Shown: positions 9,408 through 30,783 of the stretch, piece after piece
Layout of the letters: the number at the start of each line of letters is the position of its first letter
How positions within the stretch are numbered: position 1 is the stretch's first letter
From: a virus
Virus record (IMG/VR): IMGVR_UViG_3300008450_000136
Location: 1-38,626 of that record
DNA length: 38,626 nt
Strand: one strand, 5' to 3'
Translations under genes and position numbers: made by a program
Notes under the pieces: model-generated
What the model saw: the letters and a program-made list of their open reading frames with translations, nothing else
What the model was told of the DNA's origin: nothing
Databases searched by the model: none

Positions 9408-10712
9408 TTAAAGTTTATAATTGTAGTTAAACTCTGCAACTTTGCCATTTACAGGATTGTACAACTCAAGTACAGCAGCTCTTTTATTGCCAGTGAACTT
9501 ATTATGATAATGCCAGTAATCTGTTGCTGAAAGTGAAGGTAACACTTTTATTGTAAATCCATGTATTTCATTATCAGTTACAAACTCAGTTGTCTTTTTA
9601 GTGTGCAAGTGACCTGTAAATAAAGTTCTATAACTAGTTTGGCCCCACTCATATGGATGCTCAGTTGCGTATACTAATGGAGTCATCTTTTTAGATATAT
9701 CACCATGTTCAAAGCAAAACATATTCTCTCCATACACAAGCACCTTTCTTTCAGCATATTGGCTAGAGAAAGTAAAACCATCTGCATCTCCAAATGACTG
9801 AGATAATGCATGTACTAAGTGAAATGAACTAAGTCTATCGTGATTCCCTGGTATAAACATTACATGCACATTGTTAGCATAGTTTCTAACTAATGACAAA
9901 AGTAGATATAATCCTTCAAAGGCTTGAATGTAAGCATCTTGTGCAGACATACTTGCTTCTACAGGTGTACCCTTAGTTGTAGTGTTGTTGAATGTATCTA
10001 CTTGTAGAGTATCTCCTCCTAATACAATCACAACCTTTTCTAGATCATAGCTATCACGACATTTATCTAAAAGATTATTCACTGTGTTTATAGCTATGCT
10101 AGACATTGACTCATTACCAGGCTTTCCAAAATGAAGATCTTGTAAACTAAGAATACCACACACACCTTCTAAAAGATCTGACTTTTTAGTTTTAAAGGTA
10201 GTTTCTACTTTAGGAAACTTGTAGTCAGAAAGCATACCATAAAAATTAAGGAGGTCAGTTTCCTCCTTATGTATCTGTGTCACTAATGCTGAGATTAACC
10301 AACCTGTTCCTTTTTGTTTGTTCCAGTATTGAGATAATCTCCACTTAGTTGTATCTATGTTTAGTATTTCTATAATCTCTTCTGGAGTCTTTGGTTCTTT
10401 AGAAGAGTAAGCTTCTAAAGTCATTTTACCAGAATCCATATCACTATGAGATTTTATCACCCCTCCTTTTTCTTCAATTGTTTTGTAAATACCAAGCTCT
10501 ATTTTAGTAGGGCAGACTTCTCCTATAATTGATTTTTCTATTGCATCTTGTATTGCTTCATCTACTGTTTCTCTATAGTGCAACATCTTTTTATACACTA
10601 ACCTTTTAAGAGAAACGTATTCATCTAAAGGCATTCCTATTCTATTTGCAGAATACTCATCTGACTTTTTCCATTTGACAATGGAGCTATATACTTCTTT
10701 TATCTTATTCAT
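9408..10712 (-). CDS. Calcineurin-like metallophosphoesterase (434 aa)
   Basis: All dinuclear-metal signature motifs of the calcineurin-like superfamily are present in order: D192-x-H194, G233-D234, G289-N290-H291-D292, H336 with G-D after it, and G367-H368-x-H370. The enzyme should therefore hydrolyse phosphodiester or phosphomonoester bonds with two metals. Related proteins include SbcD/Mre11-type nucleases and many phage phosphoesterases of unknown substrate. The first 180 residues are an extra domain. One segment near 14-40 looks like a helix-turn-helix, and another near 110-145 is Trp-rich; either could bind DNA. It sits in the tail block rather than among replication genes, and is preceded by an inverted repeat at 10727-10759. 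It could process DNA during packaging or entry, or act on a host nucleotide or surface phosphate. The substrate is unknown. Confidence 0.9.
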   Translation of the reverse strand: MNKIKEVYSSIVKWKKSDEYSANRIGMPLDEYVSLKRLVYKKMLHYRETVDEAIQDAIEKSIIGEVCPTKIELGIYKTIEEKGGVIKSHSDMDSGKMTLEAYSSKEPKTPEEIIEILNIDTTKWRLSQYWNKQKGTGWLISALVTQIHKEETDLLNFYGMLSDYKFPKVETTFKTKKSDLLEGVCGILSLQDLHFGKPGNESMSSIAINTVNNLLDKCRDSYDLEKVVIVLGGDTLQVDTFNNTTTKGTPVEASMSAQDAYIQAFEGLYLLLSLVRNYANNVHVMFIPGNHDRLSSFHLVHALSQSFGDADGFTFSSQYAERKVLVYGENMFCFEHGDISKKMTPLVYATEHPYEWGQTSYRTLFTGHLHTKKTTEFVTDNEIHGFTIKVLPSLSATDYWHYHNKFTGNKRAAVLELYNPVNGKVAEFNYNYKL

Positions 10713-24747: not shown

Positions 24748-24993
24748 TTAAAGTGTATTTATTTTTTCTTTGATTGATGTATAGGAGCAATTGCAATAAC
24801 AATTGCAAGAAGCTTCTGCACAAGCTGTGTATTCAAGTAAAAACTTGAGATCTGCAAGATAGGAATAATCATATCCTATCTTGCAGGTACTCATGCCATA
24901 CATATCACGCTTATATCTATTCATAGCTTCGTTAGATAACATGATGTCAATCTTAACATCAGTAGGAGTAGAAAGTGTGATTGTGCAACTCAT
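24748..24993 (-). CDS. Small Cys-rich protein (81 aa)
   Basis: A beta-like N-terminus is followed by an acidic/basic helical centre and a striking Cys cluster at residues 58, 63, 65, 67 and 69 (C-x4-C-x-C-x-C-x-C), with further Cys at 3 and 37. The spacing suits metal binding or dense disulfides. Its ATG overlaps the TGA of the 52-residue zinc-ribbon-like gene (ATGA), and its stop is 3 bases from the 1067-residue gene. It belongs to the Cys-rich trio that leads into the fibre cluster. I do not recognise a family. A role in assembling or linking the Cys-bearing helices of the next protein is a guess. Confidence 0.7.
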   Translation of the reverse strand: MSCTITLSTPTDVKIDIMLSNEAMNRYKRDMYGMSTCKIGYDYSYLADLKFLLEYTACAEASCNCYCNCSYTSIKEKINTL

Positions 24994-25170: not shown

Positions 25171-25797
25171 TTAACAATTTGAGCAGCACGTTCTCTCCCA
25201 ATTATTCATAAGCTTAATTGCATAATCATACATAGCTTGTCCTTCCTTAGGAGCATGACATATTTCTACTTTTGCTTTAGCAGCATCAAGATACATTTTG
25301 ATTACATGTAATTCATCAATCATTCTCAATGTTTCTGCTGAAGGAAGACAATCACTAAGTCTCAATTTGCATAATAAACTTGCATATTTATTAAGAGCGA
25401 GTGTGGTTCGAAGATAATAATATTTTGCAGATGAAGTAGCACAAGGCTTAACACAATATTCAATTGTCCATAATCCATCAGGAAGATTAGATAATGTGTC
25501 TCCAACACTTTGAATACATAGAAATATATTATCTATTGTAAATACAAACTTTGGAGTTCCTGTGTAAGGATTTGGGTTTGTGGGAAGCAAATGATATACA
25601 TCATCAGGGTTTGCACTTGGAGGCGGTAATGTACCTTGACTAAAGTACAGTGGCCCACTTGTGCCTGGAATTGTTATAGCAAGAGTAGGACAAGTCACTG
25701 GTACTCCACTTGCATAATTGCTTGTGTCAATAACTGTAAAATTATTAGGATTACAACCATCGACTATGTTTAAGGATAATTGGTGTTTTAGTGCCAT
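25171..25797 (-). CDS. Cys-bearing structural protein with helical C-terminus (208 aa)
   Basis: The N-terminal 125 residues are beta-rich and Pro/Thr-rich with paired Cys. From about 130 the protein becomes helical, with a long amphipathic hairpin (about 150-200) ending in the Cys-rich tip E-R-T-C-C-S-N-C. The start follows an intrinsic terminator, so this gene may have its own promoter in the short AT-rich stretch before it, though none is recognisable. It is followed at 22 bases by the zinc-ribbon gene. The three small Cys-rich genes look like one functional unit placed just before the fibre genes. It may be a fibre-attachment or adaptor protein. Family not recognised. Confidence 0.66.
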   Translation of the reverse strand: MALKHQLSLNIVDGCNPNNFTVIDTSNYASGVPVTCPTLAITIPGTSGPLYFSQGTLPPPSANPDDVYHLLPTNPNPYTGTPKFVFTIDNIFLCIQSVGDTLSNLPDGLWTIEYCVKPCATSSAKYYYLRTTLALNKYASLLCKLRLSDCLPSAETLRMIDELHVIKMYLDAAKAKVEICHAPKEGQAMYDYAIKLMNNWERTCCSNC

Positions 25798-25830: not shown

Positions 25831-25881
25831 TTTTAAAATAAGAAAGGGGAAGGAGAGTAAAAACTCCCACTCCCCCTTCTT
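25831..25881 (-). terminator. Intrinsic terminator after the 436-aa structural gene
   Basis: A 19-bp stem (25840-25858 with 25863-25881) with a 4-base loop is followed on the transcribed strand by a U-rich stretch. Three pairs are G-U on the minus-strand RNA but would be A-C mismatches on the plus strand; one further position is unpaired. The stem therefore folds properly only in minus-strand RNA, which agrees with gene direction. It lies 17 bases after the stop at 25898. Confidence 0.85.
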
Positions 25882-27281: not shown

Positions 27282-27878
27282 TTATAAGTAATCTTTCATT
27301 TCATGGTCAAGCAATCTCATTGCAATCTTGTCTTCACCAAATGCAAGCAATTGATCCATCCAGTTCTGCATCTTAGCATGTTCTTCTACTTGCTCTTTAA
27401 GATATTCTAAACCAAGTTGATATAACATATGATCTCCCATGCTCAAAGCATGAGAAGATAATTCTTTAATTTGAGTGGTTACATCAATCTCATGCTGATA
27501 AGAATCTTTAATGATTTGAGGTAATCCTGTGAAGTTTTGCTCAGGCTGCTCTAGTTCTGCAGTTGCTGGCTGCACACCCATTGCTAGTAAATACTCTCTA
27601 GCAAGATCTGCGTGTTTCATTTCCTCATCAGAGTATTTTCTCCACAACTTTCCTCCATTCACATAGCCATTATTATCTAGCCATAAAGACATAGATAGAT
27701 AAATTCTACCAGAATATTCTTCTTGTTGAACTCTATAATTAAGATGATTTAGACATTCATCAGATAAAAGGATATTTTTATTTTTTGTTGTAGGCTTAGC
27801 TATAGTCTCACTTGCTTCTGAATCAGAAGTAGTTTTAGACATAGTTCTTAACACTCTTTTTATAATAGGTTTTTCCAT
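27282..27878 (-). CDS. Ferritin-like iron-storage / ferroxidase protein (198 aa)
   Basis: The protein is a clear bacterial-type ferritin. Aligned by eye to E. coli FtnA, every ferroxidase ligand is present: E54 (FtnA E17), E86 and H89 (E50, H53), E130 (E94), Q163 and E166 (Q127, E130). Family members oxidise Fe(II) to Fe(III) with oxygen or peroxide and store it inside a 24-subunit shell. The four-helix core spans about 37-195. Ahead of it is a roughly 35-residue Ser/Thr/Lys-rich extension that FtnA lacks, which may attach to a virion or other partner. It overlaps the upstream ring-protein gene as TAATG, so it is expressed with the neck genes. It could protect DNA or virions from iron-driven damage, hold iron, or be a structural shell protein. 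Confidence 0.95.
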   Translation of the reverse strand: MEKPIIKRVLRTMSKTTSDSEASETIAKPTTKNKNILLSDECLNHLNYRVQQEEYSGRIYLSMSLWLDNNGYVNGGKLWRKYSDEEMKHADLAREYLLAMGVQPATAELEQPEQNFTGLPQIIKDSYQHEIDVTTQIKELSSHALSMGDHMLYQLGLEYLKEQVEEHAKMQNWMDQLLAFGEDKIAMRLLDHEMKDYL

Positions 27879-28576
27879 TATGTATTATTTTGTACAGAGG
27901 TACTAGCTCTTGTATATTGATTGAATGATTCTATATCGGCTGCTAAAATAGCCACAGCATTGTCCACTAATATCTCAGCAATATCATCTTTAAACTCACA
28001 AGGAACATCTATTCCAGGTAAACCTGTACTTATATCAATACAATTTTGAAATTCTACTGGTATAGGTTTTCTATAATAAGTAAGATCTACAGAGGTTACT
28101 TCAAATTCACCATTTGTATAAACAGTAAATTCATTGCCAGCTAAATAAGCTACTGTCTCACCCCACTCAAAGCTTGGCTTCTTATTTGCATCTCTTAAGA
28201 TTACATATAAGTCAGCCTTATCTACCATGTAAACAATGATATTTCTATCAGGACAGCAATCACTCTTAGCCATTACATACAATGAAGTATAATTCATATA
28301 GTCTGCTGGATAAGGTAATGATACCCAATTATCTGCATAGTTCATACCATTTAATGATACTGTAGTGATTAACTTCTGAGTATCATCATAGTTAATCTTA
28401 GTAGAACCATCACCTGTTTGCTTTTGATTGTAGCCACCAATTTGTCTTCGCACCCATTCCAATTGAGCCTTGTTAAATGCTTCAACTATCTGCCAGCATT
28501 CAAAGTTATCATAATCTAGAGAGGCCAATTTATTTAGCCTCTCTTTGATTTTTATTTGGAGTTGTGCGTTTGTCAT
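27878..28576 (-). CDS. Head-tail connector / ring protein (232 aa)
   Basis: An N-terminal pair of helices (about 1-47) contains N-K-A-Q-L-E-W-V-R-R-Q. After a beta core with L-P-Y-P-A-D-Y near 86-92, a C-terminal helix (about 192-225) follows. The same helix-beta-helix order and the L-P-x-D-F/Y turn occur in the 370-residue protein, and fit P22 gp4 / HK97 gp6-type connectors. It lies between the 336-residue gene and ferritin, with TAATG overlaps on both sides. It is likely the first ring under the portal. Assignment is by architecture and context. Confidence 0.62.
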   Translation of the reverse strand: MTNAQLQIKIKERLNKLASLDYDNFECWQIVEAFNKAQLEWVRRQIGGYNQKQTGDGSTKINYDDTQKLITTVSLNGMNYADNWVSLPYPADYMNYTSLYVMAKSDCCPDRNIIVYMVDKADLYVILRDANKKPSFEWGETVAYLAGNEFTVYTNGEFEVTSVDLTYYRKPIPVEFQNCIDISTGLPGIDVPCEFKDDIAEILVDNAVAILAADIESFNQYTRASTSVQNNT

Positions 28577-30737: not shown

Positions 30738-30769
30738 GAAAAAAGAGGGAGAGTTTGTGGCTCTCCCTC
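30738..30769 (-). terminator. Intrinsic terminator after the major capsid gene
   Basis: A perfect 9-bp stem (GAGGGAGAG with CTCTCCCTC) and a 7-base loop are followed on the transcribed strand by six U residues and a further U-rich run. It starts 15 bases after the capsid gene's TAA. It is a textbook intrinsic terminator that would raise capsid mRNA relative to downstream genes. Confidence 0.93.
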
Positions 30770-30783
30770 TGATTCTTTTGTTA

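Follow-up and report, generated by a model that had tools for sequence, protein, structure and literature searches.

The locus described here raises the question of why a phage should carry a ferritin gene among the genes of its virion, and what such a protein would do there. The stretch of DNA that was analysed, referred to here as the window, corresponds to a virus record of 38.6 kb (38,626 nucleotides, IMGVR_UViG_3300008450_000136) in which the long genes all lie on the minus strand. It belongs to a Crassvirales phage, as it encodes both the crAss major capsid protein (PF23898, E=1.8e-28, Pfam) and crAss ring protein 1 (PF24228, 6462-7574, E=6e-9); portal and terminase families were matched in it as well. 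The ferritin had originally been predicted from the DNA letters, as an open reading frame with an intact ferroxidase centre lying between a connector gene and an abundant structural gene.

The open reading frame is a genuine ferritin gene. Its product of 198 aa matches the Pfam family PF00210 with E=6.1e-22 (78.5 bits, cut-off 24.5), and among PDB sequences 3qz3, a ferritin of Vibrio cholerae, is its best match (E=1e-21). AlphaFold2 predicts the five-helix ferritin fold, a four-helix bundle followed by a short fifth helix (residues 184-197), with pLDDT about 90 in the core and below 50 at residues 1-28, and Foldseek aligned it with 3qz3 at TMt 0.92. The alignment of 53 distinct phage ferritins, one truncated row of which is without most ligand positions, agrees with the original prediction for the ligands E86, H89, E130, Q163 and E166; the first ligand had been placed at E54, a position that is Asp in 9 of the 53, and is instead E53 (Table 1). 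The third-site glutamates E85, E162 and E165 and also Tyr60 are invariant in the 52-53 distinct sequences. The protein resembles E. coli FtnA (1eum) and 3qz3 in its fold, its five helices, its ferroxidase and third-site residues and Tyr60, while phage ferritins differ from bacterial FtnA in an added N-terminal extension of 14-48 aa with a basic motif, in their position within a virion operon and in forming a clade of their own. Judged by its residues it is an FtnA-type ferritin with an intact and apparently working three-iron ferroxidase centre, which we infer to be an active ferroxidase with high confidence, and by homology its cage would consist of 24 subunits.

Table 1. Positions of the ferritin gene, its predicted functional residues and its surroundings in the window, with examples of the alternative protein in related loci (prefix L).
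Feature	Position	Strand	Remarks
Ferritin gene, FtnA type, 198 aa	27282..27878	-	PF00210, 3qz3, AlphaFold/Foldseek, dN/dS
N-terminal extension, residues 1-35, predicted disordered	27774..27878	-	absent from nearest bacterial ferritins
Tag motif I6-K7-R8 (hKR type)	27855..27863	-	style common to same-slot Dps-like proteins of relatives
Putative ferroxidase ligand E53	27720..27722	-	aligns with FtnA glutamate E17; invariant in 53/53 distinct phage ferritins
Putative ferroxidase ligands E86 and H89	27612..27623	-	invariant in every row covering them
Putative ferroxidase ligand E130	27489..27491	-	alignment of phage ferritins
Putative ligands Q163 and E166, with E165 of third iron site	27381..27392	-	alignment of phage ferritins
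Upstream neighbour, 232 aa, ring/adaptor-like virion protein	27878..28576	-	phrog_29507 'virion structural protein', 5e-13
TAATG stop/start overlap, ring/adaptor gene to ferritin gene	27876..27880	-	same or close spacing in relatives
Downstream neighbour g436, 436 aa	25898..27208	-	follows slot in most relatives
Terminator-like hairpin 3' of capsid gene	30744..30770	-	consensus scan only; upstream edge of likely transcription unit
Terminator-like hairpin 3' of 436-aa gene	25850..25877	-	consensus scan only; downstream edge of likely transcription unit
DUF5856 examples	L031:9361-9741, L075:10521-10946, L102:11942-12355, L193:8948-9301, L251:3137-3490		looks like a Dps-type ferroxidase family

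The ferritin gene is closely tied to its upstream neighbour. The predicted TAATG overlap is present, and in the relatives examined the ferritin start codon overlaps the stop codon of the ring gene or is separated from it by no more than about 25 nt. The view of this neighbour as a connector is supported by its match to a virion structural family, with weak matches to SU10_adaptor or CrAss_Ring_3_4 (E 0.002-0.02) in some of its relatives; for the downstream gene nothing shows the abundance that had been assumed, and a few relatives of g436 weakly match virion structural families. Nothing useful was matched when the neighbouring proteins were compared by sequence or profile with solved phage chains. 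Between the end of the capsid gene and the end of g436 the scan for terminator-like sites found the two hairpins at the edges and one site within g436 itself, and none from the ring gene to the g436 start, which fits a single transcription unit, 30705-25898, as far as a consensus scan goes. Promoter motifs were not in excess in comparison with shuffled sequences. Late expression of the ferritin is likely in such an arrangement.

Related ferritins were found in dozens of environmental crAss-like contigs, in most of them in the same slot; all of the crAss-like data come from metagenomic contigs. A first search gave 27 loci in viral contigs and a wider one 152 confirmed stretches, many of them near-copies, of which 80 were kept. 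The gene order ring-ferritin-g436 is present in 91 fetched loci and the contig ends after the ferritin in 12 more, numbers which include overlapping windows of one contig. Nearly all of the closest relatives have the ferritin flanked by these two genes, so that the refuting condition set out with the original prediction, absence of the gene from this position in related genomes, was checked and does not apply. The accompanying statement that ferritins are rare in phages is true for isolates, where we found matches in 5 of 50,697 records (25-27% identity, all unannotated), and does not apply to the present metagenomic lineage with its many confirmed stretches.

The main discovery, which the original prediction did not contain, is that most relatives have a different, Dps-like protein in the place of the ferritin. 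The 49 resolved slots that we sampled by capsid protein, a choice that brings no bias towards ferritin, hold 8 ferritins, 39 Dps-like proteins, one tandem of both (L088) and one case of neither (L104). Only this capsid-selected set is valid for frequencies, because one of the search families was picked by the ferritin itself. The alternative protein, 126-159 aa long, is DUF5856 (PF19174, equivalent to phrog_858), and its residues make it look like a Dps-like family of ferroxidase type. The Dps-type residues H35, H47, D62 and E66 (L102 numbering) are invariant in 43/43 DUF5856 proteins, with a shorter His-His spacing in L031, L075 and the protein of phage Sajous1; the best PDB matches of the models in Foldseek are mostly Dps, with probability 1.00, E about 0.01 and a modest TM of 0.5-0.75, and four of the six proteins tested match PF00210 under its cut-off (E 2e-4 to 0.01). 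Profile comparison of the window ferritin with DUF5856 did not detect similarity, the two being different branches of the ferritin superfamily. DUF5856 was not found in the long ferritin contigs, nor another ferritin in the DUF5856 contigs, the exception being the two side by side. The empty slot (L104:15723-15797) is an apparent loss: neither protein was found in the 70.6 kb fragment of L104, and L119, its sister on the backbone tree, has the ferritin. That this relative apparently does without either protein indicates that the function can be dispensed with. DUF5856 has matches in more than a thousand phage records, T4-like rI.-1 included, and its Pfam name is still 'unknown function'. The family, known from T4 rI.-1, LIMEstone1 ORF78 and Sajous1 gp217, resembles the window ferritin in occupying the same slot in most relatives and in keeping ferroxidase-type residues. 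As relatives fill the identical gene slot with Dps, iron handling seems to be built, as a swappable part, into the way these phages make or protect their particles. The repeated exchange of Dps-like proteins and ferritins at one fixed site of a virion operon amounts to a natural experiment, in which the features common to both occupants, Fe(II) oxidation in a cage and a similar tag, are probably what the phage needs, and it offers a testable function for DUF5856.

The similarity of the tags has been examined in several ways. Motifs of the hKR or K[IL]xR type, patterns picked after the sequences were seen, occur in the first 16 residues of 37/47 ferritins and 28/36 Dps-like proteins from the slot, compared with 16/640 other N-termini from the same loci. 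A matrix trained on Dps-like N-termini alone separated ferritins from other families with an AUC of 0.92 and from their own shuffles with 0.85, while the matrix trained in reverse was weaker (0.72 and 0.68). In one backbone clade both proteins have a longer form of the tag, for example MQKIARPTIFSTKG in the ferritin and MQKISRNSIFSSNP in the Dps-like protein; it is present in 4/4 of each type in this clade, in 2/47 ferritins and 2/35 Dps-like proteins outside it, and in 0/699 proteins of other families. Over the whole set the similarity of tags showed no relation to backbone distance (p about 0.5), the effect being seen in one clade only. Because of this null correlation we limit the claim to a similar tag and do not extend it to a core swapped under a fixed tag. 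Recent shared descent does not account for the tag, as no similarity between ferritin and Dps profiles was detected. We also rejected the tag as a general virion-packaging signal, since few other proteins encoded in the same loci carry the motif; pieces of two genomes, of about 115 genes each, have 8 and 4 matches. The crAss-like members of DUF5856 carry a tag similar to that of the ferritin, while the Sajous1 protein is without it, which makes the tag look like a peculiarity of the crAss-like setting. In E. coli Dps the N-terminal tail tethers the protein to DNA. Most likely the phage tag anchors the cage, either on phage DNA or on a single virion partner; the originally suggested docking of the N-terminus to virions gains support from the likeness of the tags of the two slot occupants, and DNA binding would explain this likeness equally well.

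The reading that we prefer, and hold to be moderately probable as a whole, is that of a ferroxidase cage made late together with the virion and probably associated with the particle, which would remove Fe(II) and peroxide and so protect the phage DNA. The ferritin would form a catalytically competent cage, expressed from the same late transcription unit as the tail-ring/adaptor proteins. Its gene would occupy a dedicated iron-cage slot, held by the ferritin here and by the Dps-like DUF5856 cage in most relatives. Either cage would oxidise Fe(II) by O2 or H2O2 and store the ferric mineral, and both Fenton reagents would thereby be removed during synthesis and packaging of phage DNA. With the basic N-terminal tag as the presumed tether to DNA or to one virion partner, the protection, and possibly the cage too, would travel with the particle. 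Fe(II) oxidation and sequestration are the likeliest selected function, because cages of different families interchange with their catalytic residues intact, and this agrees with the shielding and iron handling of the original prediction. The timing with virion proteins suggests that phage DNA is protected at packaging, perhaps in the particle.

We judge the chances for and against association of the ferritin itself with the virion to be about even. Mass-spectrometry support comes by analogy, from distant DUF5856 homologs in other phages. ORF78 of LIMEstone1 was identified as a structural protein by mass spectrometry with three peptides and 28% coverage (PMC3296691), and gp217 of Sajous1 gave 10 spectra in CsCl-purified virions, where the authors caution about contamination at low spectral counts (PMC10892097). 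Both are DUF5856 proteins, with 91% mutual identity, and the latter is 31% identical to a slot protein. In the Klebsiella phages ValerieMcCarty03 and ValerieMcCarty04 a 'starvation-inducible transcriptional regulator', assigned to phrog_858 by name only, had 26 and 27 spectra (PMC13119998). These homologs, together with the common operon and the terminator-free stretch between its genes, lend indirect support to the virion role of the original prediction. Crassvirus virions can hold non-shell proteins: the available portion of the PhiCrAss001 study describes such proteins in capsid and tail, with gp45, gp46 and RNA-polymerase-related proteins as the cargo, and has no ferritin or Dps among them (PMC10172136). 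We put forward, as a tentative proposal with slightly less than even chances, that crassvirus particles carry a ferritin or Dps cage as a regular and swappable component, anchored by a common tag style on the two types of cage. If true, a ferroxidase nanocage would be a regular, swappable virion component of environmental crassviruses. The repeated exchange also makes a defined experiment of the question whether iron is carried or managed in phage particles. No report of an arrangement of this kind, of ferritin in crAss-like phages or of DUF5856, was found in a search of open-access papers, which is weak as evidence of absence.

Among other explanations, the one that survives best is that of an auxiliary iron-management enzyme working inside the cell, which would capture or detoxify host iron late in infection and outside the particle, with the operon giving it timing and high expression. 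The full set of catalytic residues is consistent with it, and the Dps and Mn-catalase genes that Gratiaviridae and other gut phages carry were likewise read as infection-stage stress enzymes in the accessible part of their description (PMC8008677). These are phage-encoded iron and oxidant enzymes of the ferritin superfamily too, while neither a fixed slot in a virion operon nor exchange with ferritin is described in that part of the report (PMC8008677). The position of the gene in other lineages, elsewhere in the structural block, is also expected if timing alone matters: the ferritin lies upstream of terminase in L151, L175 and L176, the order is portal-ferritin-DUF5856-g404 in L185 and L189 (L184 is cut off), and in L148 DUF5856 and ferritin follow the portal gene in this order. 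Against such an enzyme stand the DUF5856 homologs in purified virions and the resemblance in phage-specific tags between cages that are unrelated, which suggests a specific partner or DNA; we consider it rather unlikely. In L185:5977-6935, L184:3464-4287 and L148:5567-6513, where ferritin and Dps-like protein are adjacent to each other and next to the portal gene, the two share a different N-terminal start, DIN...

Two further explanations place the protein in the particle for other reasons than the preferred protective cage. A purely structural role for a reused ferritin fold, as shell, plug or scaffold with irrelevant iron chemistry, would be suited to a place among virion genes, and we find it very improbable, since all metal ligands are invariant in ferritins and Dps-like proteins alike and a fixed structural role would not easily tolerate interchange of differing cage architectures. 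The shell component of the original prediction is for the same reason unlikely as a main role, since conservation of all metal ligands is not expected of an inert shell. Hardly any credence can be given to a 'Ferrojan horse', that is an iron-loaded tail component by which the particle would enter through iron-uptake receptors of the host. The slot adjoins ring and tail genes, and a ferritin-based entry route was proposed by the Sajous1 authors for a DUF5856 operon, but in the same study five Vi01-like phages infected TonB- and FeoB-deficient Salmonella like wild type (PMC10892097), and the iron would be hidden inside a closed cage.

The evolutionary history of the gene shows that it is maintained and points to its mobility. 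Phage ferritins form one diverse clade, in which one MAG contig (L194) is included, and its sister is a small clade of Flavobacteriaceae ferritins with 44-50% identity. These proteins of marine genera (Maribacter, Winogradskyella, others) are without the N-terminal extension, and in the one locus examined the gene has ordinary chromosomal metabolic genes on either side. The phage ferritin has a median pairwise dN/dS of about 0.10, a value equal to that of the capsid and ring genes, which shows that it is under purifying selection. That the ferritin is a passenger without phage function, a bacterial gene caught by chance as the Flavobacteriaceae chromosomal homologs might suggest or an assembly artefact, has a negligible probability, being contradicted by this conservation, by the single diverse phage clade and by one main position across many independent contigs. 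On a backbone tree made from capsid, ring and g336 proteins of 83 phages there are at least seven changes of slot occupant, each forced by well-supported branches. The ferritin tree conflicts with this backbone: L132 and L088/L166, for example, are placed among Dps-bearing backbones, and their ferritins group with those of distant backbones. This conflict, read from sequence trees, points to a common origin with Bacteroidota ferritins that was followed by exchange of the gene from phage to phage.

Several other features of these genomes were noted. Within the structural block the window encodes a DNA-repair exonuclease (phrog_704, E=7e-47, 9408-10712, minus strand), with a tail gene on one side of it and the lysis genes on the other. 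Small cysteine-rich and possibly metal-binding proteins are encoded 3' of the slot at 24748-24993 and 25171-25797 (minus strand), with a CxCxCxC run and a C-terminal CC..C, and relatives have short open reading frames resembling zinc ribbons (L060:15755-15937, L122:8636-8797, L102:14251-14412). The sole annotated phage record with a match to the capsid protein of the window is that of Leptolyngbya phage Lbo-JY46 (PP438436, L109), whose capsid protein is 27.8% identical and whose host is a cyanobacterium.
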